Assembly (NCBI RefSeq): GCF_002234675.1
Contig: NC_019876.2
Location: forward strand, 23,895,371 to 23,959,370
Source: Oryzias latipes
Lineage: Eukaryota > Chordata > Actinopteri > Beloniformes > Adrianichthyidae
DNA length: 64,000 bases
Direction of reading: 5' to 3'
A program made the translations under genes and the position numbers. The notes beneath the pieces are model-generated. The model made no database searches, was not told the origin of the DNA, and worked only from the letters and a program-made list of their open reading frames with translations. This document shows, piece after piece, positions 3,001-62,760 of the stretch (the first letter of the stretch is position 1; every line of letters begins with the position of its first letter).

Positions 3001-3653
3001 CCATGGACACCAGTGAAGATCACAAATCATTGAAGAAAAAACATTCAGCGCACTGTCTAGTGGGTCTAGATGACCCAACTCCCAATGTTAACGTGCCTAG
3101 GATAGCACAAGGGTTACATATTAGTTATATGTGTAGTTAGTTTCAAAACAAAAATTTTAGTTTGTAAAATAACTACATCATTTTATTAAATTAAACATTT
3201 AGCTTGCAAATTAGATATTTAGATCTTAATATTTTTTTTCCAAACTAAACATTTAATAAATAATAAGAATAATTATTTTGATTGATTGATTGAATGAAAT
3301 AAAAATAGCGACCAACCTGGATCAGTTTATTAAATTATTTTCTTCATTTTATGAAAAGGTTTCACGAAACTATCAGATCAGACTCAGTGTTGGTATTAAG
3401 ATCAAATGACTCGTAATTGGATTGGGGACAGAAATTTCTGATTGGGACATCCCCACAATTATTCATTATTTTTCATGAAGAAATTATTGAACAAACATGT
3501 TTAAACAGTTTGTATGAAATGTCTAATTTCTTTTTCTTCTGGTTTGTATTTGAAGGTGATGTTGCTCTTTATGAGTCACTCAGAGGCCCTGAAGACCCAG
3601 AAATTAATCCAGAGTATGCCAACATAGGTAATCTGAGGGGACTTTTTGGTTGA
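1..3653 (+). CDS. Fc-receptor-like Ig receptor, 3' part (partial, 5' end outside window)
   Basis: Exons read as 1-112 (end of an Ig domain, GYVCRAG), 395-658 (Ig domain, LSC to YWC), 838-1083 (Ig domain, LGC to YKC), 1186-1299 (TM), 1401-1416, 1487-1563 and 3556-3627/3653. Ig and TM exons are phase 1 at both ends, as usual for Ig-superfamily genes. The TM segment (about VLLLVGPVCVFLLMIFPLMF) is followed by KKSK. The tail has NTYASLL and then YESL, 11 residues, YANI, which fits a loose ITAM (YxxL/I spaced 6-12). After YANI the frame either runs to a TGA at 3651-3653 or splices at a weak GTAATC donor to a short exon near 4451. The domain style resembles teleost Fc-receptor-like proteins: surface receptors signalling through tail tyrosines. 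Exon 4 and exon 6 acceptors are tandem CAGCAG. The 2-kb last intron holds a nested MITE. Family fairly sure; ligand unknown. Confidence 0.75.
2342..3116. mobile_element. piggyBac-like MITE (TTAA-flanked), interrupted
   Basis: Ends are inverted: TTAACCCTTGTGCTATC at 2342 and GATAGCACAAGGGTTA at 3101-3116. The left flank is TTAA; the right flank reads TTAC. A TTAA target and CCC termini are typical of piggyBac. Three other copies in the window are about 205 bp; this one is longer because a second element sits inside it. It lies in the last large intron of the Fc-receptor-like gene. Confidence 0.8.
2401..2952. mobile_element. nested long-palindrome (foldback) element
   Basis: The two halves are inverted copies. 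ATTACATGTCTGCCATAAAT and the GCGTAAAG motifs at the left return in reverse complement at 2925-2946. The ATTTTACAATTGCACGGCTG block near 2553 returns inverted near 2814. The body has direct repeats of AAGAGCGGGC (about 2436-2475). The other MITE copies lack this insert. No reading frame was seen; it is probably a non-autonomous foldback transposon. Confidence 0.75.
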
Positions 3654-5000
3654 TGTGAAATAAATAATCATACATAAATCAGAAAGTGACTTGAGAAAAT
3701 CTGTCAGTATGAGACGTTTGAAAAATGAAAACATGTTCCTGCAGTCAGGACACAGTTCAGGTTTTGCAGCTGCATGACCTTCAATGTCTTGTTTTTAACT
3801 TTTGTTTCCTCCCAATGAAACGTCAGTGAAGAAGAAGATTTTTGACATATCAGTTTAATCAGGGATCACAAAAAAAAGGACACACGCATTTAGTCACACA
3901 AAATAGCAACAAAACATAATTCACCATTACACACAGAGCAAAGAACATTCTTGAAGTACCAGAGTTTTTCAAAACAGAACAAACGACCCAACAGTCTGAA
4001 GAAAGAGAACTCCAGCTTCAGCCTGGAGCGGACACTGCAGAGCCACATCCATTGATGTTGTTATTGAGTTCTTTTTCCACATTTTACCTGGTAACCTTGA
4101 TGCCTTTTTGATCTGCAATTCCCAATTTTTCATCCAGCACTGACAGTGGATGAACCTTGGCAGAGATGATGTGCAATCAATACTATAGTGACTTCAAATC
4201 CCTCTTTAGTTGGAGAGGATTCATTGCCGTAAATCTCCACCATCCATTGGAGGATCCCGTGTGTAATGTCTTTCGACACTTTTCAGAGAAATAACAAAGA
4301 TTAAGGAGATTTCCTCAATGTAGCCTGTGTTCTATAGAAGATGTTGAAATGTCAAATTTCAGCATTCTGGCTGTGTCATTTTAAAGAAGGCTGTAAAGTT
4401 AATTGTTCATTTATTGCTGCTAAACCTAATGTTCTGATTCTCCCATGTAGAGTGGGAGCGATTCCATAGACGATGAGAACCTTCTGCTTTGAGAACAAGG
4501 CACCTGAATCCCTGGAGAGAGTTTACCCTGGAGGGGCAACATTGTAATTGAGACACCAATCAGTCAAACTCAAACAATGTGTCTCCTGTTTTATTTACCC
4601 AATCCACCTACAGTACCCAAAGTGTTTGCATAACACTTTTATGTTCAAATATAAGACATGTTAAATTTCGGTTTGGTGAGTTACCTCCAAAAGTTCAAGA
4701 AGACCCTTGTAGCATGAGGCGCACATGTGCTCATTAGACGAATCCCATTAAATGCATGACTGGAGTGTTGCACTTTGCATTAAAATGAGTAAATTAGCAG
4801 TTGTCCACATTTGAGAAAAGTTTTGTTATAATCTCTGGTTGTCACATGATTGTCATTTTTATTGTGACTGATGATAATCTTTTTTCTTGTTTAGACATTT
4901 TATTTTATATTTTGGGTTGTAGTTGCAGTGTTTTGTGTTGTTTCACTTTGAATTTGTTTAAAAGAAAAAAAAATTAAAACAATAAAAGAGTTGTAAGTTG
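3654..5000 (+). other. 3' flank of the Fc-receptor-like gene; possible terminal exon and polyA signal
   Basis: A pyrimidine-rich tract and AG at 4449-4450 precede a short phase-1-compatible reading EWERFHRR then TGA at 4474-4476. This could follow YANI if the 3627 donor is used. An AATAAA at 4981-4986 could end that transcript. Nothing else recognised. Confidence 0.35.
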
Positions 5001-12923: not shown

Positions 12924-13049
12924 TTAACCCTTTTACACCAGAACTTTGGCTCCAGTGTTGATATGTTTTCAAGTACCGTAACTCTTTAACTGTTGCCGCA
13001 ATTAACATAATTTCAGAGGTGTTAAAGGGTCTTTAAAAAAATCAAAATC

Positions 13050-13745
13050 ATCACAGCTACAGAAACGGCCATAAAGAGGAACAATTTGACTGGATCTCAA
13101 GCTGAAGAATTACGACTCAAAATTTCGGCTGCACTGTCCAGTGCCAAACCACCACCTTTCAATCTTTCCTCAGATGAAAGAAAGCCCTTGACAGCTCTGG
13201 AGAAGGACCACAGTATCAACATTTTACCAGCGGATAAGGGGAGATGTACTGTGATCCTGAATGCCATGGACTATGAAGCCAAAGTTAACAACCTACTCAG
13301 CGACACCGCCACATATGAAGCACTGAGAAGAGACCCAACCAGCGACTACAAGAAAAAGGTTATAGACTGCCTACAAAGACTGGAGAGAGATCAAGTCATC
13401 GACAAGCTTCTATTTTACAGACTGTACCCGGGTAATACCATTCCATGCATTTATGGCCTCCCACAAATCCACAAGGAAGGAATTCCACTGAGACCCATTG
13501 TCAGCAGCATTGACTCAATAACTTACAACATGGCTAAACACCTGGCTACTATTTTGGCCCCTCTTGTTGGCAACACAGAGCATCATGTTAGGAATTCACA
13601 AGATTTTGCAAACAAAGATCTTCAGCTGGATTCTGTCGAGACGATGGTGTCTTATGATGTAACTTCCCTCTTCACCTGCATTCCCACCACCGATGCAGTA
13701 ATTTCAGTGAGGAAGAGATTACTGCAAGATTCTCAGTTACAAGTT
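13050..13745 (+). pseudogene. Penelope-like element reverse transcriptase, fragment
   Basis: An open frame covers part of a Penelope-type RT. In order it shows ILPADKGR, YGLPQIHKEG, PLRPIVSSIDS, HHVRNSQDF and MVSYDVTSLFTCIP, the fingers and first palm motif (catalytic Asp in SYDV). The frame leaves the family pattern near 13745, before the YxDD motif, so thumb, second palm motif and GIY-YIG endonuclease are missing. There is no in-frame ATG at the left. A truncated, dead copy. Confidence 0.8.
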
Positions 13746-14099
13746 ACAGTCTACTGCACAGCGTTTAGAGGGGAACTAAAAAGACGCTGCAATCAAAAGC
13801 AAAAGCACAGACGCTTATCAACAAAATGGAAACAGAAACAGAGCACACACACTCAGAGTCCCTGAGGTGCAGCTCTGAGTCTGACTGATGGAGCGACATT
13901 CACACATAGCTACAACACGATCTGCTTTCCTTCCTCTCCCTCTCAGGAAGCCATCACAGCAGTCTTTCATGGCAGATTGGCCCTTCTCGGGTTGTTGTCT
14001 GAACTCAACAAACTTGATGGGTCGCTGATCTGGGCCATAAAGCAAACCATACGTCTCCTGGAAACCACCAAGAACACAACAAAGTCATCAATAGGCTGC

Positions 14100-22995: not shown

Positions 22996-23770
22996 GAATA
23001 TTGTAGTTTAATGTGTAAACTGAAATTTACGATACAGCCAATCTGTCTTATTTGAATAAGAATGGCTTATGTGACCATGATTCTAATACTGAAGAAGATG
23101 AGGGTAAAAAAAAGGTAATAGTATGGAGGAAAACCACCTTGAAAAGAATATTAAGGAGAAACCAAAAACAACCAGATTTGGCAATGTGGACCATCTGTTG
23201 AGAGGAAAGGAAAGAAACAGACAAATCCTGTATACATTTTGATATCTGAACCAAGTTAAAAAAAAGTTGGCTAGTTCTGTAACCCCAGCAAAAAGAACAG
23301 AGTCAGCAGGTGGACAAGCAGAAAATCTATGAAACATCTGCTATATGTGGAAATGATAAAGGAAGAAGTCTATTTACCCAAAACAGAAGTTGAACCCAAA
23401 AACTAAGTAAAATGAACAAAACTCTACTGAGGGAACAAAATCACAAATGTAACCTAACTGACTAAAAGTCAAATCACTGGTAAAAAAAAAGAAAAAGGTC
23501 ATGAAGATAAGGTTCATTAATACATTAATATAAACCAACAAAGGGGTCAAAGTAAATAATCCCTCCTCTGCCATCACTGGCTGGGTCCTTCTGAAGCTCC
23601 TCCCACAGTCACCTTTTTTGGACCAGGAAGCAGAACTCAATTGCATAAGTGGATGTATTTCAGGTTAGGGTTAGGGTTGTGGGAGATCGAGCAGAAGTCA
23701 GGCTTCCACTGTGTGCAGGTAGACACTCCCATCACTTTTGTACAGACACAAACCTTATTGTGGCTTGGAT
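22996..23770. other. no gene recognised; short telomere-like tract
   Basis: GGTTAGGGTTAGGGTTG at about 23663-23679 is a two- to three-unit TTAGGG match, too short to be a true interstitial telomere. Otherwise upstream sequence of NITR-A. Confidence 0.3.
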
Positions 23771-23840
23771 CATGTGATCATATTTCCTTACACTGTTGCA
23801 ACTTCAGGGGACCAATCAAAATCCGTCTTGTCACTATAAA
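23771..23840 (+). promoter_or_regulatory. NITR-A proximal promoter
   Basis: Three elements conserved in the NITR genes: CATGTGATCATATTTC (23771-23786), CCAATCA (23812-23818) and TATAAA (23835-23840). The TATA box is about 50 bp before the ATG, which implies a very short 5' UTR. Confidence 0.6.
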
Positions 23841-23888
23841 GGTGAAAAATCGTCAGTTATATTTTACATTCAACACAAGAATCTGGAC

Positions 23889-25372
23889 ATGATGATTTCT
23901 AAGCTCTTTGTTTTCTTTCTAACATGTGTGTTTGTAGGAGCAGATGGTGAGTTTTGGTTTTATCATTTTATTTGAATTTATTTGCGGATTTACATCAAAT
24001 TTATATTAAAAATGGTATAAGTGCATTTTTGCTTTTGTTTCACTTCAGGTCAGAAGACTTATCTGAAATCTTCATCCTTTGTGTGGCAGAAAAGTGGTTT
24101 TCTATCAGTCAACGTTGGTGACACAGTTACTTTAGAATGTTCTTATGAAGGTTATGAATTAACATGGATTTCCTGGTACAAACAAAGTTTGGGAGGAAAG
24201 CCTGAACTTATGTCCAGTTTCTATGCGTACAGCACGGAAGTGACCTTTTTTGATGAATTCAAGGACAATTCACGCTTCAAACTGGATATAGAAAACAAAA
24301 ATCATCACTTGAAGATTTTGAATTTGCAATTTTCAGACTCTGCTACTTACTACTGTGCAGTGAGCTATGCAATGATCCTGAAATTCACTGAGGGTGTTAC
24401 AGTCAATGTAAAAGGTTCAGGCTTAACTGTCATGAGTTCAGTGGATCAGTCGTCCTCTGAGAACATCCATGCAGGAGACTCTGTGACTCTGAACTGTACA
24501 GTACACACTGGGAGCTGTGATGAAGAACACAGAGTTTACTGGTTCAAAGACTCTGAAGACTCTCATCCAGGACTCATTTACACTCATGGAGGCAGGAATG
24601 ATCAGTGTGATAGAAAGAACAACACACAAACACACAGCTGTGTCTATGAGCTGCCTATAAAGAAAGCGACAGAGTCTCATGCTGGGATCTACTACTGTGC
24701 TGTTGTCTCATGTGGACACATACTGTTTGGAAACGGGACCAAGCTGGACCTCACAGGTGAGTTACAGTGACAATGAACTGCTTCTCTGTGAAGATGTGTG
24801 TTGCAGCTTTCCTAAAGATTTTTCTCTGTGTGATATGTGACTCTCTGCAGGTGATGATGATTCTGATAGTTTCCATACTCCCTTCCTGGTTTACCTTTTT
24901 ACATCACTGATAGTTATCATCTGTCTTCTTGTCTTGGTGATTTTTCTGTTGTGCAAGATGAGACAAAGCAACAAATATCCATCCACAGGTAACACACACA
25001 CAAACACACACACACCCACACACACAAGTTCACTTTTCTGTAATTGTTTTAGAATGTGAGTTTAAGTAACAAAAAACATAATAATCAACATTTGTTTTTT
25101 TATAACAAGAGGAGAGATCGGCAACTCTGTCCTTAACAAGCACAAAGGTAAGATTTGCACTAACGAGGTTATTTTAAAATATAATGTCTATTTAAACATT
25201 CTGTATTTATTCAAAGTGTCATCTTAACTCTGTTTTTCTTCAGGTTAAAGTTCAAGAAGCAGAAAGCCTCCAGTATGCCACTGTAGATGTGAAGCGGATG
25301 AATCGATCAAAAAGACAAAAGAACGACACCAGCAGCCAGTGTATTTACACAAGTGTGAGGGAGAAGAGCTAA
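23889..25372 (+). CDS. novel immune-type receptor, inhibitory (NITR-A)
   Basis: Exons 23889-23946, 24049-24756, 24851-24988, 25110-25147 and 25244-25372; 1071 coding bases, 356 residues. All junctions are GT/AG and phases agree. Residues 1-18 are a signal peptide. The V domain spans about 33-141 (C50, W62, DSATYYC ending at C122). The I domain spans about 150-255, with six cysteines (169, 176, 206, 217, 236, 241) and a J-like FGNGTKL at 246-252. TM is 267-290. The tail has an ITIM, LQYATV (Y325), and an ITIM-like CIYTSV (Y349). V and I share one exon. NITRs are teleost surface receptors; ITIM forms should recruit SHP phosphatases. Start chosen at the first ATG after the TATA box, giving a clean leader. 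Family call confident; individual orthology not attempted. Confidence 0.9.
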
Positions 25373-30115: not shown

Positions 30116-31684
30116 GTGAGACCAATGCATCCATTCAGCAATCAGGAGTCAGTCTTGTTTTAGCAAAATGTTGGTTATTATAAATATTAAACAAATTCAC
30201 ACAAAAAAAAGTCTAATTGCATAAATGGTAGATTTACTTCTAGGGTAAAGTTTGAATTAGGTTTATATGACTAGCTTAAGCAACAGGCCACCAAGCTGTT
30301 GCCTGGCAAACTAACCTTCGTTCTACAAGTTGTTGTCTAAACAGGAAAAAAATGGTGTTAGGTGTGAAGAACCACAGAAGGGCACTGGTAACAGGAACAG
30401 TTCAGCGTACTTTAAGTTGCTTTTCTAGACTTGATGTTATCAACCGAAATAGGTGCAACTTTGTTGATCTTTGTTTTAATGAAAATTACAAAAAGCTGCT
30501 TAATATCTGGATTACAGTCTTTTTACTTGTCTGGTTTTCTGTGTCAGTGGATGAAAAGTTAAAATAAACGGATGTGCAGTTAAGAGCAGTGTTTGCATGC
30601 ATATGTGGGTAAACAGCAGGTCTGCACCTCAGCCCCCCCCCCCCCCCCCCCCCCCCCCCTTTTCCACTGTGATGACAGCGGGCCGCAGGCACACAATCGC
30701 CTTTTAGTCATTATAGGAACAGCACATGCAGAAAATGCTGCCCTACTTTCACAGGAACTCTTCTCTTTTTGCTTTGATATGTAAAAAGATATCGTGCAAA
30801 ATTCTGTCCTGATGACAAGAGGCTTCTAAACCTCATTTGTTTTAGCTTTCATGATGGTCTAAATAGATTTTGGTTCCACTATGACACAACTCAGAGCTTC
30901 ATGGTGGCCTGCGCACCACACGGGGCTCCAAAAAACAATTACTCCAATCATTCTTAACAATCTGTGGTGAATTTCCCATGTGAGTAAAGTCAACAAATGC
31001 AGCACATTGGCTAACCTACTAAAACAAGAACCCTACATTTTCCTTATACCAGCCCCGCCTCTGTCTTTTTATTGTAAAATTGACATTCGTCCTAACCTTA
31101 TAAACCTTTAAAATGAAGGGAGCACATAAGTATAGCTGTCAAAATAAAACCACAGTACTGTTACTAAATACAAGTAATCAGAATCAGTGTATTAGTATGT
31201 TTTTAGACATTTTCATAAATGGCTACTCTTGGAGAGTTTTGCCTCCATCCCAAGATTGTTATGGCGTTGGCAGAAGCATGTGCTGCTCAGAAAAACTGCT
31301 AAGTGAACTGTTTGTTTAAAAACCATGCTGGGTTAACATCAAAGAGGATATTAAAACGTTTCGATCCCTATATTTATCTTATTTGAAAATCATTTTACAT
31401 AAACTTAGCCAATTCCAGTTATTAAACATCTTTTTGAATAGCTGAAAATTAGTGCAAATGTATTGGACAGAAATGTTAACTTTTCAGATCAGGTTTCTTT
31501 CATATGATCAAATTTCACAATTGTCATTGTGGTCAAAATAAAAATGTATGTTCCTTATATGTTAAGACAACTCAGTCATTTCATTACTGGCTAACATTAG
31601 AGATCTGCTGGCACCATCATATGACAACGTATGGGTATTCAATGAATATTTTTGGAAATCCGGTTGCATAATAATTTTGAAAGT
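30116..31684. other. no gene recognised; contains a poly-C tract
   Basis: Short open frames only. See the separate C27 entry. Confidence 0.3.
30633..30659 (+). repeat. poly-C tract, 27 bases
   Basis: An uninterrupted C run; the complementary strand is G27, able to form G-quadruplex. Length may be affected by assembly. Confidence 0.9.
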
Positions 31685-31713
31685 ACACACACGCAAACAC
31701 ACACACACACACG

Positions 31714-31804
<91 letters not shown>
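31685..31804 (+). repeat. compound microsatellite (CA)n(TA)n
   Basis: An imperfect CA tract to about 31731 followed by a long TA tract. The IYIYIY open frames here are artefacts. Confidence 0.95.
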
Positions 31805-31808
<4 letters not shown>

Positions 31809-33034
31809 GCTATATAAGGCTATATATCCTCCCAGGCCTCTGGTAGAGGACCCAAGCCTATGTGAGTAACCACCCGCGGAGGGTGAGAGGGGCGTTGTTT
31901 TTAGTTTTATATATATAGCCATCCTTCAGTGAATCTTACAGTGCCTCGTGATGCTTTCTGCTGACAGCTCTACACAGATGCCGATTTCATTCCTTGTTTT
32001 ATTTTAATGAGATTTGGCACCTACTCACATTGCTAAAGCTGGCAAAAGATGACTCAATATCCACGGTGTTGCTTTGCTTAAAAGGGCATACCTGTCTGAC
32101 CTGACCCAGAAAATTTGTGGGTTGTTGACTAGAAGAACATAAGAGACACTTGACCCCAAATGACTTATTGATAACAATCAAAGCAACTTGGGTTTCCCTT
32201 ACACCAAACCAATGCCACAGGGTGATCACCAGCCATTACATGCAGTAATTTATGTAGTATGAGATCCAACTTTTGAGTGATTAGAAGTTAATACAGTGTA
32301 CAGAAGCCATAGTTTTCTCCTTTGCAGTATGGTGGTGAGCTCTTTTGCATCACATCCACACAAAAAAGATTCAAATCCCTACTAAATCTTTTCTGTGTGG
32401 AGTTAGTGTTTTCTTCAGGTGTGTTTTAGGGCCCTCTAGCTTCCTGTAAAGGGAACTGGTGGTTCTAAAGGATTCCTTAGGTGTAAATGTATGTGTGTTG
32501 GTGTCTGTCTATGTGTGGTCTTATAATGGACTGGCAAATTGTTCGGGGTATACCCCACAGTTTCCATTCAGTAGCTGTGATCGGCTCCAACCCCCCCTGG
32601 AAAAGAGCAGAGAATAGAAAGAGTGAGTATAGAAGATGAAAGGGTGGACATTTGTACTGGAAACATCTTTTTTTAAGTGTTCTGACTTAATATTCTAATT
32701 TTCTTAGACACTGAAGTTTAGGCTTTCATTTTACGTGGGCCAAAATGTTTTAATGTATGTGTCATGATCCTAAATAAAATGAGAGTTTCACTTAAAATTA
32801 ATAGAATTTTTCTCAAAAAGACTTTTGGGAATGCACCTGTCATGCTCCACCTGTTCCCAGGAAATGAACATATTTGGAACTTACTGTGTCACCTGCCTAT
32901 AACCATCTCATCAAAAATCATAACACATATCATCAGGTATGTGTTGTTCTATTGCCAGATCGTAGTAGTCTGCTCCTCATTTCAGTGTTTAATTATTGCC
33001 ATGCTGCATTGCCAACCTTGGAATTTTCTTGGGT
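31805..33034. other. no gene; degenerate family B repeat inside
   Basis: 32395-32640 carries GTGTGGAGTTAGTGTTTTCT, GGGGTATACCCCACAG and GGCTCCAACCCCCCCTGG, a worn family B copy. Nothing else recognised. Confidence 0.4.
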
Positions 33035-34424: not shown

Positions 34425-35811
34425 ATGGAGACATCTGCTCACATTGTTTTCTTTTTGACACTTTTGCTTTCAGGTGAGTTGAGATTCTTTATATGCAAAT
34501 ATTTCTTAAGTCATGATTATGAAAAGAATCGTCACATTTACAATAAAAAAAAATGTTTTTGCTCTTTATTTTACTTTAGTTCAAATGACTCTTCTCGCAT
34601 CTTCCTCATCTGTGCATGCAGACAGTGAATTTGTATCCGGTCTTATTGGTCAAACTGTGACTTTACCATGTGACTACAACAGGAGTGATTTCATTTGGGT
34701 TGCATGGTACAAACAAATGGTGGGAAAGAAGCTGGACCTCATTTCACAAATGTTTAGGTATCAAAAAACAGTCATGAAGAATCCACGTTACAGTGTGAAA
34801 AGTCAAAACCAAAAATATCACTTAAATATTTTGAACCTACAAGACTCTGACTCCGCTACGTACCACTGTACCATTTGTTTTGCTGCATCAATAGATTTCT
34901 TAAATGTGGTTACAGTCAATGTAAAAGGTTCAGGTTCAACCATCCAGACTTCAGTGCATCAGTCGTCCTCTGAGAACATCCATGCAGGAGACTCTGTGAC
35001 TCTGAACTGTACAGTACACACTGGGAGCTGTGATGAAGAACACAGAGTTTACTGGTTCAAAGACTCTGAAGACTCTCATCCAGGACTCATTTACACTCAT
35101 GGAGGCAGGAATGATCAGTGTGAGAGAAAGAACAACACACAAACACACAGCTGTGTCTATGAGCTGTACATGAAGAACCTGACAGAGTCTCATGCTCGGA
35201 TCTACTACTGTGCTGTTGTCTCATGTGGACACATACTGTTTGGAAACGGGACCAAACTGGAACTCACAGGTGAGATATAAATTTGAATATTCAAGTTTGT
35301 GGATAAAAAAATGTCCTCAAGAATTTAAAGTTAAATATTTTTAATCTGGTTCCAGACTCTTCAGCTCCTCTTAACTCTGTGATTCTGAACAGTTTGGTTG
35401 GATTATTGACGGTCATGAGCGTCCTCGTTGCTTTTCTGTTTTTTCTGCTGTGGAAAAACCACAAGAGCAACAACTGCACCTCCACAGGTACACAAACGCC
35501 TTTCACTGTTTAACAAATGTGTTCTTGAATTAAACCTTTCTGTGTTTCATAACCAGAGGAAAGATCGCCTGCTGCCCCCTTAAGAAGCTCAGAGGTGAGA
35601 CTAAAATCCCTTCAGTTATCTTGTTAATCTTGGATTCCCACAAAGTTCACTCTGTGATTCTCTTTTGTCAATTTGGTTTCAGGCTGAGAACAAAGACGCA
35701 GAAAGCCTCCATTATGCTGCTGTTAATGTTAAGAAGTCCAGCAGAACAAAAAGTCAGAAGAACGACTCCAACACCGACTGTCTTTATGCGAGTGTGAGAC
35801 AGCAGAACTGA
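34425..35811 (+). CDS. novel immune-type receptor, inhibitory (NITR-B)
   Basis: Exons 34425-34473, 34580-35269, 35356-35487, 35557-35594 and 35683-35811; 1038 coding bases, 345 residues. The leader exon ends in LLLS. The V domain has C47, W59 and DSATYHC (C113), quite unlike the V of A and C, with an extra C116 just after the second canonical cysteine. The six-cysteine I domain and FGNGTKLEL are almost identical to A, but the Gly two residues before YYC is Arg here (HARIYYC). TM is about VGLLTVMSVLVAFLFFLLW, then the ITIM LHYAAV (Y314) and ITIM-like CLYASV (Y338). Exons 3-5 and their introns nearly match NITR-C. Start chosen at METSAHIV, which gives the clean leader; an upstream in-frame ATG would add 15 polar residues. 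Confidence 0.9.
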
Positions 35812-45726: not shown

Positions 45727-47031
45727 TCAAACAGAACTGTAAGTTTGTCTTCTGACAGAATACATCACACAAGTCTCCAACTGTCTGCTTTCTGCAGGTC
45801 GTCCACTTCTTCTGGATTTTGAAAACTTAAGAGCAGCAGAGTTTGGGTCAGAAGAGTCTTGAGTCTGAAATACAGATATTGGGAATTAAAAACTAACAGT
45901 AGAAAACGAATGAAGAACCATGGACTAAAAACAAAAAGCTCACCTTCAGGCTGTCCGTGTGCAGATTTTCCTTTGCTTAAACATGGAATATAAAGGCCAT
46001 ATGTCAAGTTTAAGTACAAATCTACACATTGAAAATGTGAAAATTTGCCTTAGAATTTCTTACTTATCATACCTGCACAATGATGTTCAAAAATAACAAC
46101 CAAACCAAGAGCACCAAAAATGAAAAACGACATCAGAACAGCCAGAATCACAGTCAGAAGGCTAGTATATGGATGTTTCATGAAAACTGTAGAGTCTGTA
46201 AAGTCAGAAAAATATCACAATGTTCTGTTATGCATGACATTTTTCTATAATAGGTCTTTTTGTAGCTGTCTTCAGCCCTCAGATAATGAAAGCCAAACCA
46301 GTGAATGTTTAAAAGACTAAGGCATGATCTATGAAAAGACCTAAAGATTCAGAGATGTTTGTGATTTAGATGATGTTCAGAGGATCACAGCAATAAAAAA
46401 AGCATTTTATGAGGAGCAGGAAGCTTACTGCACAACTCTCCCTTCGCTTCATCATTGGGCTCATCATCGCCTGTAAAGAAAAGACATAAAGGAAGTTCAT
46501 GAATTCAAAAGCAGAAATATATCAGAGAATCATGATCTTACCTTTAATGATCAGTTGTGTTACATCTCCAATGACTGTATGTCTGTTTCTGTAGAATCCA
46601 CAGAAGTACAGCCCAGAGTCAGACTCGTCCACTCCACTGATTTTCAGAGACACAGAGCTGCTGTTGGAATTCATTTCAAATTTTCCACCATCAAATCCAT
46701 CACAGAAGGAAGGATCACCATCAACACCAAACATGGAGGAGATACAGCTGACTTTGGAGCTTTTGACCACTCTGAACCAGTCAGTCTGTTGTCTGTTTTT
46801 GGTGAAATCAGAGCAGAGCAGACTGACGTTTTCTCCAGACTGGACCTCCACAGTCTTAGACTCACAGAAGCAGCCTGAAGCAGACAGCAGACACTACCTC
46901 ACTGAAAATAATGATTCTTCCTTCAAAAGTCTGTTCATGAAAGAACAGCAACTTCTTCTGCCGCAGAGTTCATCAGATTACTTACTGCGGCTGCAGAGAA
47001 GAAAAGTTGTTACTACGATGAGGCTCCTCAT
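45727..47031 (-). CDS. single-V Ig receptor, CD300/pIgR-like
   Basis: Minus-strand exons 47031-46986, 46874-46542, 46470-46429, 46195-46073, 45975-45944 and 45864-45727; 714 bases, 237 residues, consistent phases and GT/AG sites. Signal peptide MRSLIVVTTFLLC. One V domain with C36 and DSGLYFC (C107), WFR motif, plus C59/C73 that could form the second disulfide typical of CD300 and pIgR domains. An acidic 14-residue stalk exon follows, then TM at about 153-177 without charged residues. The short tail ends near VMYSVRRQTYSSV and has no ITIM (Y+3 is Arg). The stop codon overlaps AATAAA (TGAATAAAG), so the 3' UTR would be very short or another signal is used. Its family is less certain than its structure; an NITR-like orphan receptor is the alternative. 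Confidence 0.8.
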
Positions 47032-53070: not shown

Positions 53071-54807
53071 CGGAGCCAGAGTCCTGACATTAAGATATTA
53101 AAATATATCTTGTTCCCACAGATTAATATCTTATTCCAACAGATTATTATCTCGTTCGCACGAAATACTATTCCGTTCCCACAAGACACTATTGCGGGTA
53201 AAAATAAAAGCAAGAATGGTCGATCTGTTATTGTCTCGATGAAAATCTGAAAAATATCATATTAAGTTGGCTGCTTCGCCGCATATACCTATTAGCTCCT
53301 AGCATAATTAGCCTAGCCTAATATAAATAGCCTTCGAATGTAAAGCGACTGACTGCTGAAGAGTATGTTAATAAAAAACAAGTCCTAAATATATTTATTC
53401 CTATTTGACCCTAAACTACAATATCAGCTGTCTGTCTGTCAACCGACCAGCCAGTTGCCCAAATGCCGGCATACAAGCAAAGAGCTCTGCGGCGGAGCTA
53501 GTAGTAGCCTAGCAGGAGCTATACTATGATGACAAAGCACCCTAGGTATAAATCTTATGATATTTATCTTATATTCATTGAGACAGTAATAAAGTGATCA
53601 TTTTTGTTTTTCATGGTTCTTTCTTAATAATAATAATAATAATAATAATAATCCATTTTATTTAAAGCGCCTTTCAAGGAACCCAAGGACACTTTACAAA
53701 ACAAAGGTTAAAAAAAAGCACAATAAAAATAATAAATAAAATTAAAAGTGAATCAGGATGGGAAGGCAGAAATGAACAGATGGGTTTTGAGTTTAGATCT
53801 GAAAGTAGCAAGAGAGTCTATGTTACGGAGATCAGGAGGGAGGGAATTCCAGAGTTTGGGAGCCGAGCAGCTGAAGGCTCGGCTTCCCATGGTGACGAGT
53901 CGGGCCGGAGGGACAGAGAGCTGAACAGAGGAGGAGGAGCGAAGAGAACGAGAGGGGGTTTTAATATGGATGAGGTCGGAGAGATAAGGAGGAGCCAGGT
54001 TATGGAAGGCCTTAAAGGTGAACAGGAGGAGTTTGAATTGGATTCTGGAGGTTATGGGGAGCCAGAGAAGCTGATGAAGAACCGGGGTGATATGACTGAA
54101 GGAGGGGGTTCTGGAGATGATTCGGGCAGCTGAGTTCTGGACCAATTGGAGCTTATTGAGGGTTTTTTGGGGGAGGCCAAAGAGGAGAGAATTACAATAA
54201 TCTAAACGGGAAGTGACCAGACTGTGAACCAGGATAGAAGCAGAGGGGACAGTGAGGGAGAAGCGTAGACGATTAATGTTACGTAGATGGAAATGGGCTG
54301 ACCGTGTAATGTTATTGATGTGGGACTGAAAAGATAGTGAGCTATCTAGGATGACACCCAGACTCTTAACCTGAGGGGAAGGGGGAGACAGAAGATGAAT
54401 CAATTGAAAGAGTTAGACTTGAGGCTTTGGAGAGGGTGGATTTGGAACCAACGAGAAGTAGCTCGGTTTTATCACTGTAGAGTTTGAGAAGGTTTGAGGT
54501 GAACCAGTTTTTGATTTCAGAACGACTGTGGGTCACAGAGACACGGAAGTTACCGCTGAAAGCGGCTTTTGCGGCCGCATGGAGAGCATATCCGTGTGAA
54601 TGACTTATGACGTGAATAATTATTGCGTTCGAACGGATTAACGGATTCGGATTCGAACGAAATACTTATTGCATTGGCACGAGTTAATCATTTTGAGGGA
54701 ACGGAATAGTATCTTGTGGGAACGCAATAGTATTTTGTGCGAACGAGATACTAATCTGTGGGAACAAGATATACTTTTAATATCTTAATGTCAGGACACG
54801 GGCTCCG
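53071..54807. mobile_element. foldback DNA transposon with 21-bp subterminal repeats, carrying a LINE
   Basis: Inverted ends CGGAGCCAGAGTCCTGACAT and ATGTCAGGACACGGGCTCCG, flanked by TA on each side (53069-53070, 54808-54809), suggesting a TA target. Inside the left end are four 21-bp direct units (53106-53126, 53127-53147, 53148-53168, 53169-53189) of the form TATCTCGTTCGCACGAAATAC. The right end has four inverted partners (54688-54708, 54709-54729, 54730-54750, 54751-54771). A 5'-truncated LINE fills 53622-54540. No transposase. Confidence 0.8.
53622..54540 (-). pseudogene. 5'-truncated LINE (L2/Maui-like), ORF2 C-terminus
   Basis: On the minus strand 54403-53753 is open for 216 codons: [44 protein letters not shown] and [15 protein letters not shown], the thumb and C-terminal part of fish L2/Maui ORF2. 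Sequence just upstream (to 54540) continues as KTELLLVGS in a shifted frame. The 3' end has an (AAT)n tail at 53625-53652. Frame well preserved, so insertion may be recent. Confidence 0.75.
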
Positions 54808-54904: not shown

Positions 54905-56325
54905 TCAGTTCTGCTGTCTCACACTCGCATAAACACAGACTGTGTTGGAGTTGTTCTTCTGTCTTCTTGTTTTGCTGGACTTCTTAACATTAACAGCAGC
55001 ATAATGGAGGCTTTCTGCGTCTTTGTTCTCAGCCTGAAACCAAATTGACAGAAGAAAATCACAGTGTGAACTTTGTGGGAATCCAAGATTAACATGATAA
55101 CTGAAGAGAGTTGAGTCTCACCTCTGAGCTTCTTAAGGGGGCAGCAGGTGATCTTTCCTCTGGTTATGAAACACAGAAAAAGTTTAATTCAAGAACACAT
55201 TTGTGAAACAGAGAAAGAAGTTTGTGTACCTGTGGAGGTGCAGTTGTTGCTCTTGTGGATTTTCCACAGCAGAAAAAGCAGAAAAGCAACGAGGACGCTC
55301 ATGACCGTCAATAATCCAACCAAAGTGTTCAGAATCACAGAGTTCAGAGGAACTGAAGAGTCAGGAACCAGAAAAATAATGATTTAACTTTAAATTCCCT
55401 TGACTATTGTTTCATCCACAAACTTGAATCTTCAAAGGTAAAACTCACCTGTGAGGTCCAGCTTGGTCCCGTTCCCAAACAGTATGTGTCCACATGAGAC
55501 AACAGCACAGTAGTAGATCCCAGCATGAGACTCTGTCAGGTTCTTTATGTGCAGCTCATAGACACAGCTGTGTGTTTGTGTGTTGTTCTTTCTGTCACAC
55601 TGATCATTCCTGCCTCCATGAGTGTAAATGAGTCCTGGATGAGAGTCTTCAGAGTCTTTGAACCAGTAAACTCTGTGTTCTTCATCACAGCTCCCAGTGT
55701 GTACTGTACAGTTCAGAGTCACAGAGTCTCCTGCATGGATGTTCTCAGAGGACGACTGATCCACTGAAGTCAGAACATAAGAAGAAGGGTCCTTCACAAG
55801 GACACGAAAGCTCTCCAAAAAAGTAAGTGAGTAAGAATCAGAACTTATGCAGTGGTAGGTAGCAGAGTCTGAAAATTTTAAATTAGAAATCTTCAAGTGA
55901 GGATTTTGGTTTTCTGTCTCCAGTTTGAAACGTGAATTGCTCTTAAATTCATCAGAAAAGGTCTCCTTTGTAGTGTGCCCATAAAAAGTGGACATAAGCT
56001 TGGGCTTTTGTCCAAAACTTTGCTTGTACCAGAAGATCTGAACTGAATTAGGACCTTCGTAAGAACATTCTAAAGTAACAGTGTCACCAACCGAGACAGA
56101 AAGGAAACCTTTGCCTTTCTGCTGTACAGAGGAGGATGCCTTCGGATACGTCTTCTGTCCTGAAGTAAAACAAAAACGAAAATACCTCTGAGAAGCACAA
56201 AAAATGTTTAATGAAATCAGATAAAGATGCTCAGAAATACATGTAAACGATTAAAACCATAACTCACCATTTGCTGCTACAAACAAAAGTGTCAGAAAGA
56301 AAACAAAGCGCTTCGAGATCATCAT
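54905..56325 (-). CDS. novel immune-type receptor, inhibitory (NITR-C)
   Basis: Minus-strand exons 56325-56268, 56159-55449, 55352-55230, 55159-55122 and 55033-54905; 1059 bases, 352 residues. Leader MMISKRFVFFLTLLFVAA and GQKTY start of the mature chain as in NITR-A. V domain C51, W63, DSATYHC (C123). Six-Cys I domain with FGNGTKLDL almost identical to A and B. TM, linker and tail exons and their introns are nearly those of NITR-B: ITIM LHYAAV (Y321) and ITIM-like CVYASV (Y345). The B-type exon 3 acceptor (TTCCAG) is TTCCTG here; the next AG, 9 nt downstream, keeps the frame and removes three stalk residues. Opposite orientation to A and B. Confidence 0.88.
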
Positions 56326-56361
56326 GTCTGGAGTCTCGCCGTGAATGAAAGTACATTAACA

Positions 56362-56431
56362 TTTATAGCGACAAGTCAACTTTTGATTGGTTCTCTGAAG
56401 TGACAACAGTTTTAAGAAACATGGTCACGTG
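56362..56431 (-). promoter_or_regulatory. NITR-C proximal promoter
   Basis: On the minus strand CACGTGACCATGTTTC (56431-56416), CCAATCA (56390-56384) and TATAAA (56367-56362), same order and spacing as NITR-A. Homology to A continues upstream through GTGTGCAGGTAGACACTCCC. Confidence 0.6.
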
Positions 56432-57696
56432 ATCAAAGCCACAACTGGGTTTGTGTCTGTACAAATGTGATGGGAGTGTCTACCTGCACACAGTGAGAGG
56501 CTGACTTCTGCTTACTCCCCCACATCATTTTAAGAACTCCTTAAATACAGAAACTTTGAACAGTTTTTCTTTAGCAGAAGCCTAACTTATGAAACCTGCA
56601 CATGTTGTCCACGTACTACTTGAGGTGTTGATTCATTGGAAGGCCCCAGCCACTGGTAACATATGAAGATTAAAGATACTTCTATTTGATAATTTTGTTG
56701 ATCCAATGGACTGGGCCATCAAGGCAGTTCCCCTCTCTGGCCCATCCTCTAAATCACATGACAAAAGACCCTTTCGCTGCTTCCTGCAGTGGTGTACCAA
56801 CATGAAGGGGTAGCTTTTTCAGGCTGAGCATTGCAAGTTCCTGTGATGGGGCCCCGGTAACTTCAGTCCAGGCAACTTTGTCAGACTATGTTCAAGAACC
56901 TAAAGCTCATATAAAACTAAGAATTTGCAATAACGCTTCTTTCCAAAGCAAACCCTGCATGGCAGAGGCTAAAGGGACAGTGTCAGAAATTTTCTTCTGA
57001 ATTTCCTTTAACCAAATAGTATGAATAAAACATATAATTTTACTAAAAGAGAGCTGAAGTGACCACCTAAGTCAGGGGTGGATAGACTTTAAGGTCGAGA
57101 CCACATGAACTTTTAAACTTTTAGAAATGGCTAAGTTATGAACCAGAGTCATACATTCACACCACCGTCTGCAACGCTCGTTCAAGCAACCACATGTGCT
57201 AGGATCAGGTAGTGACAGTTCACTGTGCACACTATATGCTAAAAGCGTGTTTTAGAATTTGTGGTTAGTGAGAATTGAATATGTGTCACATATTATTAAT
57301 ACCTTTTTTTTTTCAAGCCATTGTGATGATGTCATCTGAACTTAATCAAATTCAAGCTGAGAGAGATTGACAGGCCTGATATTCTTGTCAACAACTCTTT
57401 GATCAGTATAAAGTTACATGTGCTTACAGGTTACCTGATGCATGGTTTTCAACATGTCATGAAACTTGTCCAAAATCTTGGGGGACACAATAAAAGGCTG
57501 TCAGTGTTTCTTAATGCTGAATGCAAAATCGAACTGACAGTGGTGTCCTGTAACACAAATAAAAAGAAAAAACTAAGAAAGAAAAAAAAAACAATATACC
57601 AAAATTACCAAATTATTTCTTAAATTCTTGACCTCAAGTTATGAGGATCTGCACCTTCACCTGTGTACTCTCATTTGGTGTGGCTGGTCTGTTTAT
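56432..57696. other. no gene; fragment of MITE family M
   Basis: 57150-57240 (ATTCACACCACC, then GGTAGTGACAGTTCA) matches the end of family M at 22600-22660. Nothing else recognised. Confidence 0.35.
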
Positions 57697-59014: not shown

Positions 59015-62000
59015 TCAATGTGAACATGTTTGCTGTGATATGAGCCAGTTTTTTAGGTTCTTTTTAAACAGAGTGTATGTGGTGATGTGTCTTATGATGT
59101 GAGGGACAGAGTTCCATTCTTGTGCTGCTGTTACAGAGAAGGCGCTTTGGCTGAAGGCACTTCTCCTCAGAGGAACTATACAGTCTTGTTGACCCGACCC
59201 TCGAGTCACTCTTTGGGATGATCTTATTTTAACAAACTGACTGAGTGGAGGGGATGATAGACCGTTAATGATTTTATAGAATAGGCATAGTTTTGTATAC
59301 TTAATGAAATTCTCCCAGCTTAACAGTTTGTGTTTTTGTAAAATGTCACAGTGATGATGTCTTATTGGTTTTCTATCCAGTACTTTAATTGTTTGTTTGT
59401 AAAGTGACTCCAGAGGTTTTAATGCTGATTTGTTTGCCTGTGACCATGTAGTGAGACAGTATGTCATGTGGGATAAAATCATTGCATGCATGAACATTGT
59501 GGCAGCTTGCAGTGACAAATTTGCCCTAATAAATCTAAAATTGGACAGGTTATACCTCACACGGTTACAAACTTTTTGAATTTGTGATTTAAAATTGAAT
59601 GTTGTATCAATTAAAATCCCAAGGTATTCAAACTTTTCAACAATGTCTATTTTCTTTCCTGCCACAAAAACATCAGCCAGAATATTTTTACGGTTTGTTT
59701 TGGAAAAGAACATTGCAACTGTTTTGTTTACATTGAGACATAGACTTGACTGCTCCAACCATTTTGCCACATGTCCCATCATTTCAGTGAGCTTCTCTGC
59801 CACATCAGATGTGTTATTGCCATGTGAATAAATGACAGTATCATCAGCATACATCTGAGTGTAGACATTTGAACAAACAGAGGGCAGATCATTGATGTAT
59901 AGTGAAAAAAGTAAAGGCCCTAGAATAGAACCTTGCGGGACACCTGTAGAGATAGGGAGAGGCGAGGAATGACAGTGATTTATCCTAACTGACTGGGATC
60001 TATTTGACAAATATGATTCTATCCATTTTATGGTACTAGAGGAGAAATTGAATTTGGTTAGTTTAGTCAGTAGCTTTTTATGATTTATAGTGTCAAATGC
60101 TTTTTTTAGATCAAGAAACACAGCCCCAACTACACCCCCCTTATCCAACAGCTGTTTTATGTTTTCTGTGAAAAAGCAGTTGGCTGTCTCTGTTGAGTGC
60201 AGAGCTCTAAAACCAAACTGCATTGGATGAAGAGAAAAAGATGTATTGTTGAGGTGTTCAATGATTTGTTGGGCAATAAGTTTTTCTGTGATCTTGGACA
60301 CTGTGGGTATGATACTGATGGGCCTGTAATTTGAAAGCAACATGGAGTCGCCATTTTTGTAGATAGGAATCACAACTGATGACTTCCATGCGCTTGGAAA
60401 TATGGATTCAGAGATTGATTGATTGAGAATAGTGGTCAAGGGAGATGTTAAGGATGAGCAGAGTTCTTTGAGCACAAAAGTATCCATACCGAATATGTCT
60501 TTTGTTCTGCTTGACTTAAGAGACATGATTGTTTGAGCGACTTCAGTTTCAGTGACAGTCATTAAGTTAAGTATAGGCTCTATCTTATTTATGGGACAAA
60601 CATGCAAATCATTAGCTTTAAAACGAGCAGCAATTAAGGAAACAGATTCAATGAAACCTCTGTTGAAGGCATCTGCAACTGTATCTGGATCATTAGTAGT
60701 TTGTCCATTTACCTTTATTTCTAAACCTTTTTTACATTTTGTGTCCTTTCCTTCAAGTTTTTGCAATTGGCTCCATGTTTTTTTGGAATCCCCTTTGGCA
60801 TTCTTAATTATTGTCAAGAAAAAATCTGCCTTGGCCTTCCGTATGCTTTTTACCACTTTATTTCTCAATGTTGTAAATAGATATCTTGAACTATGAGATT
60901 TACTTTTGATTGCATTTTTCAGTGCTAAATCCCTCTCTTTCATCAATTTTGTAATGTAGGAATTCATCCAGGGTAGCTGGTTTTTATTTTGTTTGATTTT
61001 GATTCTTGAACTGAAGCTTTTAATTGTTTCTTTAAGTGTTTTTGTGAATAATTCACAGTCCCTTTCACAATCAGTTTTCTTTAATATCTGATTCCAGTTG
61101 GTTTGATCAACAGCATTCTTAAAATCCTCCTTTATTTTTTTTGGGATCCCAATGAAGTCGTGTTCTGTGGCAGAAAAATTAAATCTTTTCTTTGATAGCT
61201 TTCTAACTACCAGGAGGAGATTATGGTCAGAGAGGCCAGCTAACATGTTGTATGTCTTAGTTATTCTTTCTGGACGGTTGCTAAAAAATAAATCTATCTG
61301 AGTGCTGCTTGAGTTGGTAATTCTTGTTGGGCCCTTAATTAATTGCACAAGATCAAATTTGTCAGTCACCCGCTTTAGATTTTTTCTTGCTGATGTATCC
61401 TCCCAGTTTATATTAAAATCCCCCAAAATCACAATTTCCTTACTTAGGTTACAGTTTTTGAGTAGCCTTTCAAACTGTTCATAAAATGCACCATCTGATG
61501 AGGGGGGACGGTAAATCACAATAATTGTGAATGACATTTGTGGAGACAGTATAACATTAAGGCCTAGGCATTCCAGTGCATGGGCATCAGGCCAAACAAT
61601 TTCCCTGCACTGAATACTGTCCTTAATATAAACCATGACTCCACCACCCTTTGCACCCTCCCTGTCTTTCCTGAACAGTTTGTAGCCCAGGATAGTAAGT
61701 GCTGCAGAGGGGGCATTTTGATGAAGCCAGCTCTCAGACAGACAGAGGTAATCAAGATTTGAATCAAGCAGTAAGTGTTTTATCTGTTCAGTTTTTGACA
61801 TGATGCTTCTAATGTTTAAATGTCCACCTAAAATCCCTCTGGGCTTAGATCTAGAATCCCACACTATTTTTGAGTAACTGACAGTTCGAAAAAATGACCA
61901 TTTCCGGTTTTTGGCGATCCCCGGATTCAGTTGCTTCCTGTTTACATCGTGCGTTGCCATGGTGACTGAGTGACCGTGAAGTGAAGTTTGAGGAAAAGTT

Positions 62001-62722
62001 TGTTGTCGTTGCCAGTCTGGATCTTGTTTCTTGGTCCTATATAATATTGAGTTTGAAGCGCGCTGTTGAACCTTTGACTCCGGACTGCCGCGATGCTGCG
62101 ATGCTCCGACACACGCCCCGGGATCCCGCGCTGCCACAAGCCTCCCGCCGCCGGACCACCCTGGCACCGCGCCTTCCAAGCCATCGCCCCCGGCTCCCCA
62201 GACAAGCAGCTCAAGCGCAGTTGATGTTGGTGGTAGAGGATTCAGCTGGTTAGCATGGCGTACCAAAGCACACGAGGGTGCAGAAGAGCATACCTGTAAG
62301 GTAGGAGCGATGCGTGTAGCCGCCGCTGCACGGTTAGCTTTTCCTGATGTCCCGGTGATCGGGCCTGGGCATGGGTGGATGTCCCCGGATAACATCAAGC
62401 AGATTGTAATGATAAGTCCAGTGGCAGATACAGATTTTGTTACCGCTGTTGTACTAGTCCGGTTGCTGATCTTGTAGAGTGACGGATAAACGAACGTCGT
62501 AGCCAGTGCGTGGGTCCCAAAGCCAATACTTGTTTTTGCCATTACTAAATTCATTTGTTTACAGCTCACAGCCATATAATGTTTGGTCGAATTATTTAGA
62601 GAATGGAACAATCGAGCTCTGTTGTCCACTCTCCATTGAGGTTCACTTAAAGGCTTCAACAAGTTTGAGAGTATACAGTAAATTAGGAGCGTCGTGATTA
62701 TGCCTGTCCCTCCGGCCGCCAT
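59015..62722 (-). CDS. LINE ORF2-type polyprotein: 2A-like leader, APE endonuclease, reverse transcriptase
   Basis: An uninterrupted frame of 1235 codons from the ATG inside the YY1-like motif (an upstream in-frame ATG would add 11). The first 120 residues have two hydrophobic stretches and end in SGDIHPCPGP, a 2A-like motif (62360-62383) with Cys where Asn is canonical. APE endonuclease follows from about residue 300: LNIRSI, LSESWL, YRPPSS, GDFNINW, SDHN. RT then has NYRPISIIP, FLDLKKAFDTINH, GVPQGSILGPLLF and MYADDTVIY (59840-59851). All catalytic boxes look intact, so the copy could be young or active. It drives retrotransposition; no link to the receptor genes. Confidence 0.85.
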   Translation of the reverse strand: MAAGGTGIITTLLIYCILSNLLKPLSEPQWRVDNRARLFHSLNNSTKHYMAVSCKQMNLVMAKTSIGFGTHALATTFVYPSLYKISNRTSTTAVTKSVSATGLIITICLMLSGDIHPCPGPITGTSGKANRAAAATRIAPTLQVCSSAPSCALVRHANQLNPLPPTSTALELLVWGAGGDGLEGAVPGWSGGGRLVAARDPGACVGASQHRGSPESKVQQRASNSILYRTKKQDPDWQRQQTFPQTSLHGHSVTMATHDVNRKQLNPGIAKNRKWSFFRTVSYSKIVWDSRSKPRGILGGHLNIRSIMSKTEQIKHLLLDSNLDYLCLSESWLHQNAPSAALTILGYKLFRKDREGAKGGGVMVYIKDSIQCREIVWPDAHALECLGLNVILSPQMSFTIIVIYRPPSSDGAFYEQFERLLKNCNLSKEIVILGDFNINWEDTSARKNLKRVTDKFDLVQLIKGPTRITNSSSTQIDLFFSNRPERITKTYNMLAGLSDHNLLLVVRKLSKKRFNFSATEHDFIGIPKKIKEDFKNAVDQTNWNQILKKTDCERDCELFTKTLKETIKSFSSRIKIKQNKNQLPWMNSYITKLMKERDLALKNAIKSKSHSSRYLFTTLRNKVVKSIRKAKADFFLTIIKNAKGDSKKTWSQLQKLEGKDTKCKKGLEIKVNGQTTNDPDTVADAFNRGFIESVSLIAARFKANDLHVCPINKIEPILNLMTVTETEVAQTIMSLKSSRTKDIFGMDTFVLKELCSSLTSPLTTILNQSISESIFPSAWKSSVVIPIYKNGDSMLLSNYRPISIIPTVSKITEKLIAQQIIEHLNNTSFSLHPMQFGFRALHSTETANCFFTENIKQLLDKGGVVGAVFLDLKKAFDTINHKKLLTKLTKFNFSSSTIKWIESYLSNRSQSVRINHCHSSPLPISTGVPQGSILGPLLFSLYINDLPSVCSNVYTQMYADDTVIYSHGNNTSDVAEKLTEMMGHVAKWLEQSSLCLNVNKTVAMFFSKTNRKNILADVFVAGKKIDIVEKFEYLGILIDTTFNFKSQIQKVCNRVRYNLSNFRFIRANLSLQAATMFMHAMILSHMTYCLTTWSQANKSALKPLESLYKQTIKVLDRKPIRHHHCDILQKHKLLSWENFIKYTKLCLFYKIINGLSSPPLSQFVKIRSSQRVTRGSGQQDCIVPLRRSAFSQSAFSVTAAQEWNSVPHIIRHITTYTLFKKNLKNWLISQQTCSH

Positions 62723-62725
62723 CTT
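62716..62725 (-). promoter_or_regulatory. YY1-like site at the LINE 5' end
   Basis: CCGCCATCTT on the plus strand, AAGATGGCGG on the element's strand, overlapping the ATG. The same motif sets the transcription start of mammalian L1 and occurs in translation-start elements. Confidence 0.5.
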
Positions 62726-62760
62726 CCCCAATTTTGATCCAATGCATAAAAACACAGGCT

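Follow-up and report, generated by a model that had tools for sequence, protein, structure and literature searches.

The NITRs have been proposed as receptors of the natural killer (NK) type of bony fish. For medaka, the available text on its NITR clusters (PMC2442602) places the V and I domains in one exon on chromosome 18, with NITR9 as the exception, and in two exons on chromosome 10, and gives as NITR features an I domain with six cysteines, a J-like FGXGTXLX motif and tails with immunoreceptor tyrosine-based inhibitory motifs (ITIMs). The families were named from their V domains under a birth-and-death model, and Desai et al. (2008), in the same text, regarded concerted evolution as less likely to be the primary process in medaka NITRs (PMC2442602); the paper includes a figure with trees of V and of I, and the words "recombination" and "exchange" do not occur in its main text. 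Here we analyzed 64,000 nucleotides of chromosome 18 of medaka, Oryzias latipes (C18:23,895,371-23,959,370, the window), which carry three NITR genes, NITR-A, NITR-B and NITR-C (A, B and C below). C has a mixed make-up of A-like and B-like parts, and this is the rule of a cluster of about 20 genes rather than a unique event, C being an ordinary member of it. Contrasts in divergence, discordant trees, breakpoints and tail replacements were all observed: in 190 pairs among 20 genes of chromosome 18, the median synonymous divergence (dS) was 1.11 in the V domain and 0.058 in the I domain, where the maximum was 0.147. We consider it highly probable that the cluster evolves in concert domain by domain, through non-allelic gene conversion, and that V domains and tails are re-paired through the shared I domain.

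Each of A, B and C is built from five exons: one for the leader, one for V and I together, one for the transmembrane segment and two for the cytoplasmic part. Splice signals were used to set the exon borders; all introns were of the GT/AG type and the frames were open through all exons (356, 342 and 352 aa). A spans 23.9-25.4 kb and B 34.4-35.8 kb on the plus strand, and C spans 56.3-54.9 kb on the minus strand. The V-set domain was detected with Pfam E-values of 2.7e-29, 8.4e-27 and 6.3e-29 for A, B and C, and further Ig domains were matched too. In a PDB search, the best 60 of the 6823 matched chains were antibody fragments, and NITR was absent among the matches listed. The single V-I exon agrees with the organization of medaka NITRs on chromosome 18, and the exon layout, the six-cysteine I domain and the ITIM tails are the same as in the clusters described in the available text of PMC2442602; the count given in that text very likely includes the present genes. 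The translated I domains contained the six cysteines characteristic of NITRs (NCTVHTGSC, DQC, HSC, YYC, VSC), and the J-like motif in I was FGNGTKLDL or FGNGTKLEL, in which the last J residue is L, not V. Exon 3 was hydrophobic and by eye without charge in all three genes, which are predicted to code for type I transmembrane proteins. Exon 5 carried LQYATV in A and LHYAAV in B and C, named ITIM-type here on what we take to be the ITIM consensus. The parts of the three genes are as follows.

56326-56524, minus strand: 5' flank of NITR-C, homologous to A 23678-23888 and also to loci L013 and L025
56268-56325, minus strand: exon 1 of NITR-C, leader MMISK (gene model)
55772-56159, minus strand: V part of exon 2 of NITR-C, closest in identity to L013 and L025 (outside the window), then to A
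55449-55771, minus strand: I part of exon 2 of NITR-C, a block homogenized across the cluster
54905-55448, minus strand: intron 2 to exon 5 of NITR-C, tail type 1, ITIM-type LHYAAV
55352-55230, 55159-55122 and 55033-54905, minus strand: exons 3, 4 and 5 of NITR-C (gene model)
C 55771/55772 (minus strand), A 24433/24434, B 34946/34947: breakpoint from segmentation, the V/I junction in exon 2
23889-24433, plus strand: front of NITR-A, with leader exon 23889-23946, then intron 1, then the V part of exon 2 starting at 24049 (gene model)
24434-24756, plus strand: I part of exon 2 of NITR-A, homogenized with B and C, likeness stopping at the splice donor (24761)
24757-25372, plus strand: intron 2 to exon 5 of NITR-A, exons 24851-24988, 25110-25147 and 25244-25372, private tail
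34425-34946, plus strand: front of NITR-B, with leader exon 34425-34473, then intron 1, then the V part of exon 2 starting at 34580 (gene model)
34947-35269, plus strand: I part of exon 2 of NITR-B, homogenized block
35270-35811, plus strand: intron 2 to exon 5 of NITR-B, exons 35365-35487, 35557-35594 and 35683-35811, tail type 1

The sequence-only reading of the window took C for a mosaic with a front half like A and a back half like B. The mosaic was real and its breakpoints were sharp, but it consists of three blocks rather than two, because the I domain is alike in all three genes. Homology between A and C started at A 23678 and C 56524, some 200 bp ahead of the start codon, bearing out the claim that more than 150 bp upstream of C follow A, and ran to the end of exon 2 with 80.6% identity over 1108 columns; the MMISK leader and the GQKTY mature start, said to be common to A and C, were found in both translations. 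Between B and C, homology extended over 873 columns with 94.0% identity, from B34947/C55771 within exon 2 to B35815/C54901 just past the stop. The transmembrane, linker and ITIM exons and introns 3 and 4 of C had been called close to identical to B. The likeness was there but slightly overstated, since the identity over intron 2-exon 5 alone was 92%, and intron 2 belongs to the B-like block as well as introns 3 and 4.

Segmentation of A, B and C put the breaks at C 55771/55772, the V/I junction, and for A at the splice donor of exon 2. In five of the six triplet tests, none of the 20000 permutations reached the observed value; the remaining test, with A as the child, gave 96/20000, and with C as the child the observed value was 191 against a largest permuted value of 131. 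The longest identical runs (166, 174 and 166 bp) were reached in 0/5000 permutations, the largest permuted run being 66. A breakpoint scan, as had been proposed, gave sharp breaks with permutation support, and the V and tail trees disagreed, instead of sharing one branching without a breakpoint. In the V domain, dS was 0.87 for A-C, 0.88 for A-B and 1.48 for B-C, and in the I domain it lay between 0.029 (C-B) and 0.044 (C-A) for all pairs; the contrast between V and I divergence was significant in each pair (Fisher p = 7e-12 for A-B, 3e-11 for A-C, 1e-16 for B-C). The transmembrane exon had a dS of 0.034 in B-C versus 1.2 in A-C, and transmembrane exon and tail were both young in B-C only (dS 0.03-0.06, versus 0.67-1.24 in the other pairs). 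The A-like front of C is an old relationship and not a recent one, as its V dS of 0.87 indicates.

When C was placed among its relatives on chromosome 18, its closest V domains lay beyond the window, in L025 and L013, which lie 16.5 and 33.6 kb further on, on the strand of C, and have tails of the same type. The amino acid identity of V to C was 72% for L013, 69% for L025 and 65% for A. In the V tree, A, C, L025 and L013 were grouped with support 92/95, and C, L025 and L013 with A outside with 81/87; A and C as V sisters were not rejected in the approximately unbiased (AU) test (p = 0.132), and a clade of C and B was rejected (AU p = 0.0004). The back block, from 16 genes, rejected the group of A, C, L025 and L013 (AU p = 0.0064), and did not reject C, L025 and L013 without A (p = 0.169). 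The back block of C was 92-94% identical to nine genes of four V lineages, among which B, the sole other type-1 gene inside the window, was the lowest (92% versus 93-94%); the back-block tree nonetheless joined C and B at 85/88. L011, whose V is unrelated, matched C at 95-100% in 12 of 13 60-bp windows over 55772-55052 and at 90% in the remaining one, and then dropped to 80%. The earlier view of A and B as the specific parents of C was not supported by these comparisons, with L025 and L013 nearer in V and B the least similar of nine type-1 tails; we concluded that the mosaic of C is real and that it probably has parents other than A and B.

The tail of A is private, its nearest NITR relatives in the genome being about 74% identical over exon 5. 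A foreign source of this tail was considered and discarded, as the genome search gave nothing above about 74% over exon 5; the other genome matches were short repeats in its intron, and it is more likely that the tail of A is its old one. The 3' untranslated region (UTR) was also tried as a clue to the direction of exchange. The post-stop bases that A and C seemed to share are uninformative because similar bases occur in genes with unrelated V.

Searching the 734-Mb genome (25 contigs) with the I domain of C gave 55 matches, 29 on chromosome 18 (26 loci), 19 on chromosome 10 and 7 on chromosome 17; all paralogue comparisons were made within this single assembly. Of the 26 I-like loci on chromosome 18, 21 were used as V-I genes, excluding L023 (stop), L030 (partial) and L032, L033 and L034 (36-46% identity). 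L031, with a frameshift in I, was left out of the I dS, the I tree and the base composition of third codon positions (GC3), leaving 20 genes. The back-block tree covered 16 of the 21 genes, as the type-3 tails and that of L021 do not align.

The I domains of the analyzed loci were 91-99% identical in DNA, and I dS was below 0.1 in 145 of the 156 pairs with a V dS above 0.5. Nonsynonymous divergence (dN) in V had a median of 0.48 over the 190 pairs. The same held for the tails: among the ten genes of tail type 1 (45 pairs), the back-block distance was below 0.13 in all 33 pairs with a V distance above 0.3. Intron 1 was diverged, and introns 2-4 were common within tail type 1. The V data rejected as clades both the ten type-1 genes (p = 0.0006) and the four type-3 genes (p = 6.6e-54). 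In the I tree, three of the four V families were scattered and the Vwaq family was rejected as a clade (p = 0.00045), while Vwaqkp formed one clade. Silent sites of I are not frozen: fourfold sites agreed at 11/21 between C and the chromosome 10 locus L035, versus 39/40 between C and A. GC3 was higher in I than in V in 20/20 genes (means 0.50 versus 0.34).

A separate observation concerns I positions 191-225 (window 55528-55562, minus strand), where 21/35 sites varied among the 17 main-cluster genes versus 27/265 elsewhere. This patch lies in the stretch ...CVYELHIKNLTES..., and the 35 nt could be a selected surface or a spot cold for conversion.

The tails fell into types that were distributed across V families. 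Type 1, the commonest (10/21), was found in C, B, L010, L011, L012, L013, L019, L020, L025 and L031, and the tail of L024 was 83-86% identical to it. Type 2 comprised L015, L022 and L027, with L029 at 82%, and type 3 comprised L016, L017, L026 and L028; the tails of A and L021 were single. Type-3 tails have a short cytoplasmic end and accompany V domains of three different families. In type-3 genes, no match to the ITIM exon of A or C was found within 2.5 kb, and no charged residue was seen by eye in the transmembrane segment. Mapped on the V tree, the tail types require 7 or more changes, where the minimum for five types is four. Exon 5 of the type-2 genes L015, L022 and L027 was about 0.095 from type 1, with the preceding block at 0.68-0.69; the type-2 ITIM exon is a separate, exon-limited exchange with type 1.

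In three pairs of genes, the 5' flank, V and I were alike and the tails differed: L011/L017 (90%), L015/L016 (92%) and L024/L026 (93%). In all three the likeness ended at the splice donor of the I exon, and each of the three V families includes both a gene with an ITIM exon and a gene in which none was found. L016 and L017 showed the reverse: their V domains are unrelated, and they matched at 85% from the V/I junction into the tail. The suggestion that C might combine a V type with a new tail was not supported at the level of function, as an ITIM-type motif is present in each of A, B and C; L017, L016 and L026 are the clearer replacements. L017 (C18:24241700-24248100, bases ~876-3697) contained a broken V front belonging to the L015/L016 family, joined to the initial 75 nt of I, then a second, complete front of the other V family, and then the L016-type (type-3) tail. 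From its arrangement, this double front looks like a fossil of an exchange whose joint lay inside the I domain.

Chromosome 10 served as a replicate. Of its 19 matching loci, 8 were examined, and 6 of one type were compared (15 pairs). In these six genes V and I were in separate exons, as expected for medaka chromosome 10. For the 12 pairs (of 15) whose members belong to different V groups, dS was 0.27-0.40 in V and 0-0.014 in I, and the V-I intron was 61-71% identical.

Several results weigh against concerted evolution through a shared I domain. The pairwise homoplasy index (PHI) gave no signal (p = 0.99 for I, 0.88 for V and I together), in what is a weak test with 29 informative sites and a saturated V; 82 of the 406 informative site pairs were incompatible. 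The I tree is poor in information, with one of 17 branches starred, and did not reject the V families Vgqk (p = 0.41) or Vdhq (p = 0.13) as clades. Three genes located 3 Mb away formed one I clade (100/99) and also one V clade (99/98), so that distance and descent are confounded for this subcluster. I distance was weakly correlated with V distance over 20 genes (Mantel r = 0.20, p = 0.04), and no effect of position on I distance was seen in the main cluster (Mantel p = 0.33). On chromosome 10, the GC3 difference between I and V was marginal (0.38 versus 0.36, higher in 5/6 genes). For the 17 main-cluster genes, no correlation between I and V distance was detected (p = 0.21).

We infer that the process is non-allelic conversion and recombination in the germline. 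V domains would diverge along separate old lineages, and the I domain would be overwritten repeatedly among the members by germline non-allelic gene conversion, as would the transmembrane/ITIM block within a subset including B and C. Because it is near-identical across the cluster, the I domain could then serve as a homology bridge where a V front and a tail get re-paired. The outcome would be many ligand-binding ends on a common stalk with mostly common inhibitory tails. Since the same pattern was present across the whole cluster, the finding on C is a window-sized view of a cluster-wide process. A bolder and more doubtful suggestion is that the near-identical I domain may act as a germline recombination hinge, by which any V front can be re-paired with any tail, inhibitory or ITIM-less.

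The origin of C had been ascribed to an inverted duplication together with conversion or unequal exchange. Exchange between NITR genes was upheld, and the need for an inverted duplication was not. A single birth of C from A (front) and B (back) accounts for the likenesses inside the window, where C is closest to A in its front and 92% identical to B in its back, and it agrees with the joining of C and B in the back-block tree and with A and C as possible V sisters. It is nevertheless very unlikely, because in V identity C is closer to L013 and L025, which lie on its strand and share its tail, other type-1 genes match the back block as well as or better than B, the I domain of A is homogenized too, and the V divergence between A and C is old. 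Selection often drives divergence in the V domains of Ig receptors, and the high V dN would suit an explanation without any exchange, by recent duplications, fast selected divergence of V and strong constraint on I and tail. We regard this as the least probable of all, since silent sites are diverged in V (dS about 1.1) and not in I, where they are free over longer times; introns 2-4 are common to the genes of tail type 1, in contrast to the diverged intron 1 and chromosome 10 V-I intron; and the V and back-block trees conflict. It would require mutation to be faster in V, intron 1 and the flank, yet not in I, introns 2-4 and the tail.

The remaining alternatives differ from non-allelic gene conversion with re-pairing in the kind of exchange. 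Unequal crossing-over in I with duplication and little conversion overlaps with it, as both can operate; the tail replacements, which retain the whole front and change everything compared past the I donor, are as expected from crossing-over, and the scar in L017 resembles a joint with one homologous and, we suppose, one illegitimate end. Crossing-over alone does not keep I alike between old V fronts and old tails, as in A-B, where dS was 0.88 in V, 0.03 in I, 1.2 in the transmembrane exon and 0.67 in the tail; an I domain alike between old flanks calls for exchange on both sides, as in a conversion tract, and crossing-over as the main process is therefore unlikely, though the least so among these alternatives. 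Conversion templated by complementary DNA (cDNA), with a spliced donor copy giving exon-limited tracts, would explain why tracts end at exon edges, at the I-exon donor in A and in the tail swaps, why type-2 tails resemble type 1 in exon 5 and are distant from it in the block upstream, and why the I exon is alike on chromosome 10 next to a diverged V-I intron. Introns 2-4 were homogenized along with the exons within tail type 1, however, and heterologous introns would halt a DNA tract at the same places, so we give RNA-mediated conversion only a slight chance.

Other features of the window were as follows. An open 1247-aa frame at 59015-62758 (minus strand), with endonuclease/exonuclease/phosphatase and reverse transcriptase domains (Pfam), is an element of the long interspersed nuclear element (LINE) type, upstream of the NITR-C flank by about 2.5 kb; just downstream of NITR-C, 53753-54412 (minus strand) resembles by eye the reverse-transcriptase end of a second retroelement. 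Between B and C, a V-set exon at 46522-46893 (minus strand; Pfam E = 1.9e-12), 25-29% identical to the V domains of A, B and C, marks another Ig-type gene. At the window edge (373-1136, plus strand), two open frames resemble by eye Ig exons of an Fc-receptor-like gene; Pfam Ig_2 was matched in the second, and the first had no match. A 279-aa frame at 13026-13865 (plus strand) resembles by eye a reverse transcriptase fragment, judged from motifs that we take to be typical of this enzyme. A long TA/CA microsatellite runs across several frames at 31562-31925. No Rfam family and no tRNA gene was matched in the window.

Should exchange be the reason why these genes share I domains and tails, phylogenies and ortholog assignments based on the whole protein or on the I domain would mislead, and V and the signaling tail would evolve separately. 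Germline diversity of recognition on a common signaling frame would then be directly testable in laboratory fish. A hinge in I, if real, would yield matched receptors that share one type of ligand binding and differ in signaling, a germline analogue of a variable-constant system without somatic rearrangement. KIR and other mammalian paired inhibitory-activating receptors are likewise clustered Ig receptors that recombine domains and tails. The likeness to KIR is an analogy: type-3 NITR tails lack a found ITIM exon, yet they also lack, by eye, a charged transmembrane residue.

The process is known in kind from protocadherins and fish NLRs. In fugu and zebrafish protocadherins, the accessible part of the report describes the same combination of diverse N-terminal ectodomains and C-terminal parts homogenized by regional conversion, with GC3 raised in the homogenized part (PMC1852091). 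Protocadherins differ in that variable exons are joined to constant exons and in being neural, whereas NITRs are separate full genes, and the NITR tails here form interchangeable types, unlike protocadherins. For zebrafish NLR-B30.2 genes, the portion available likewise reports domain-specific conversion within one immune family, recognized by synonymous divergence, and groups with shared converted B30.2 domains that sit on one chromosome (PMC4852459). There NACHT and B30.2 are both converted, with different groupings, and that portion describes no I-like bridge between V and tail (PMC4852459). In our literature search on NITRs with gene conversion or concerted evolution, where subscription papers were mostly outside the scope, PMC2442602 alone among the papers found covered NITR clusters, and it argued the opposite; earlier reports of I-domain sharing in the NITR clusters of sea bass, pufferfish and zebrafish may exist. 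Compared with the view expressed in the available text of PMC2442602, the present data give strong concerted evolution of the I domain and the tail.
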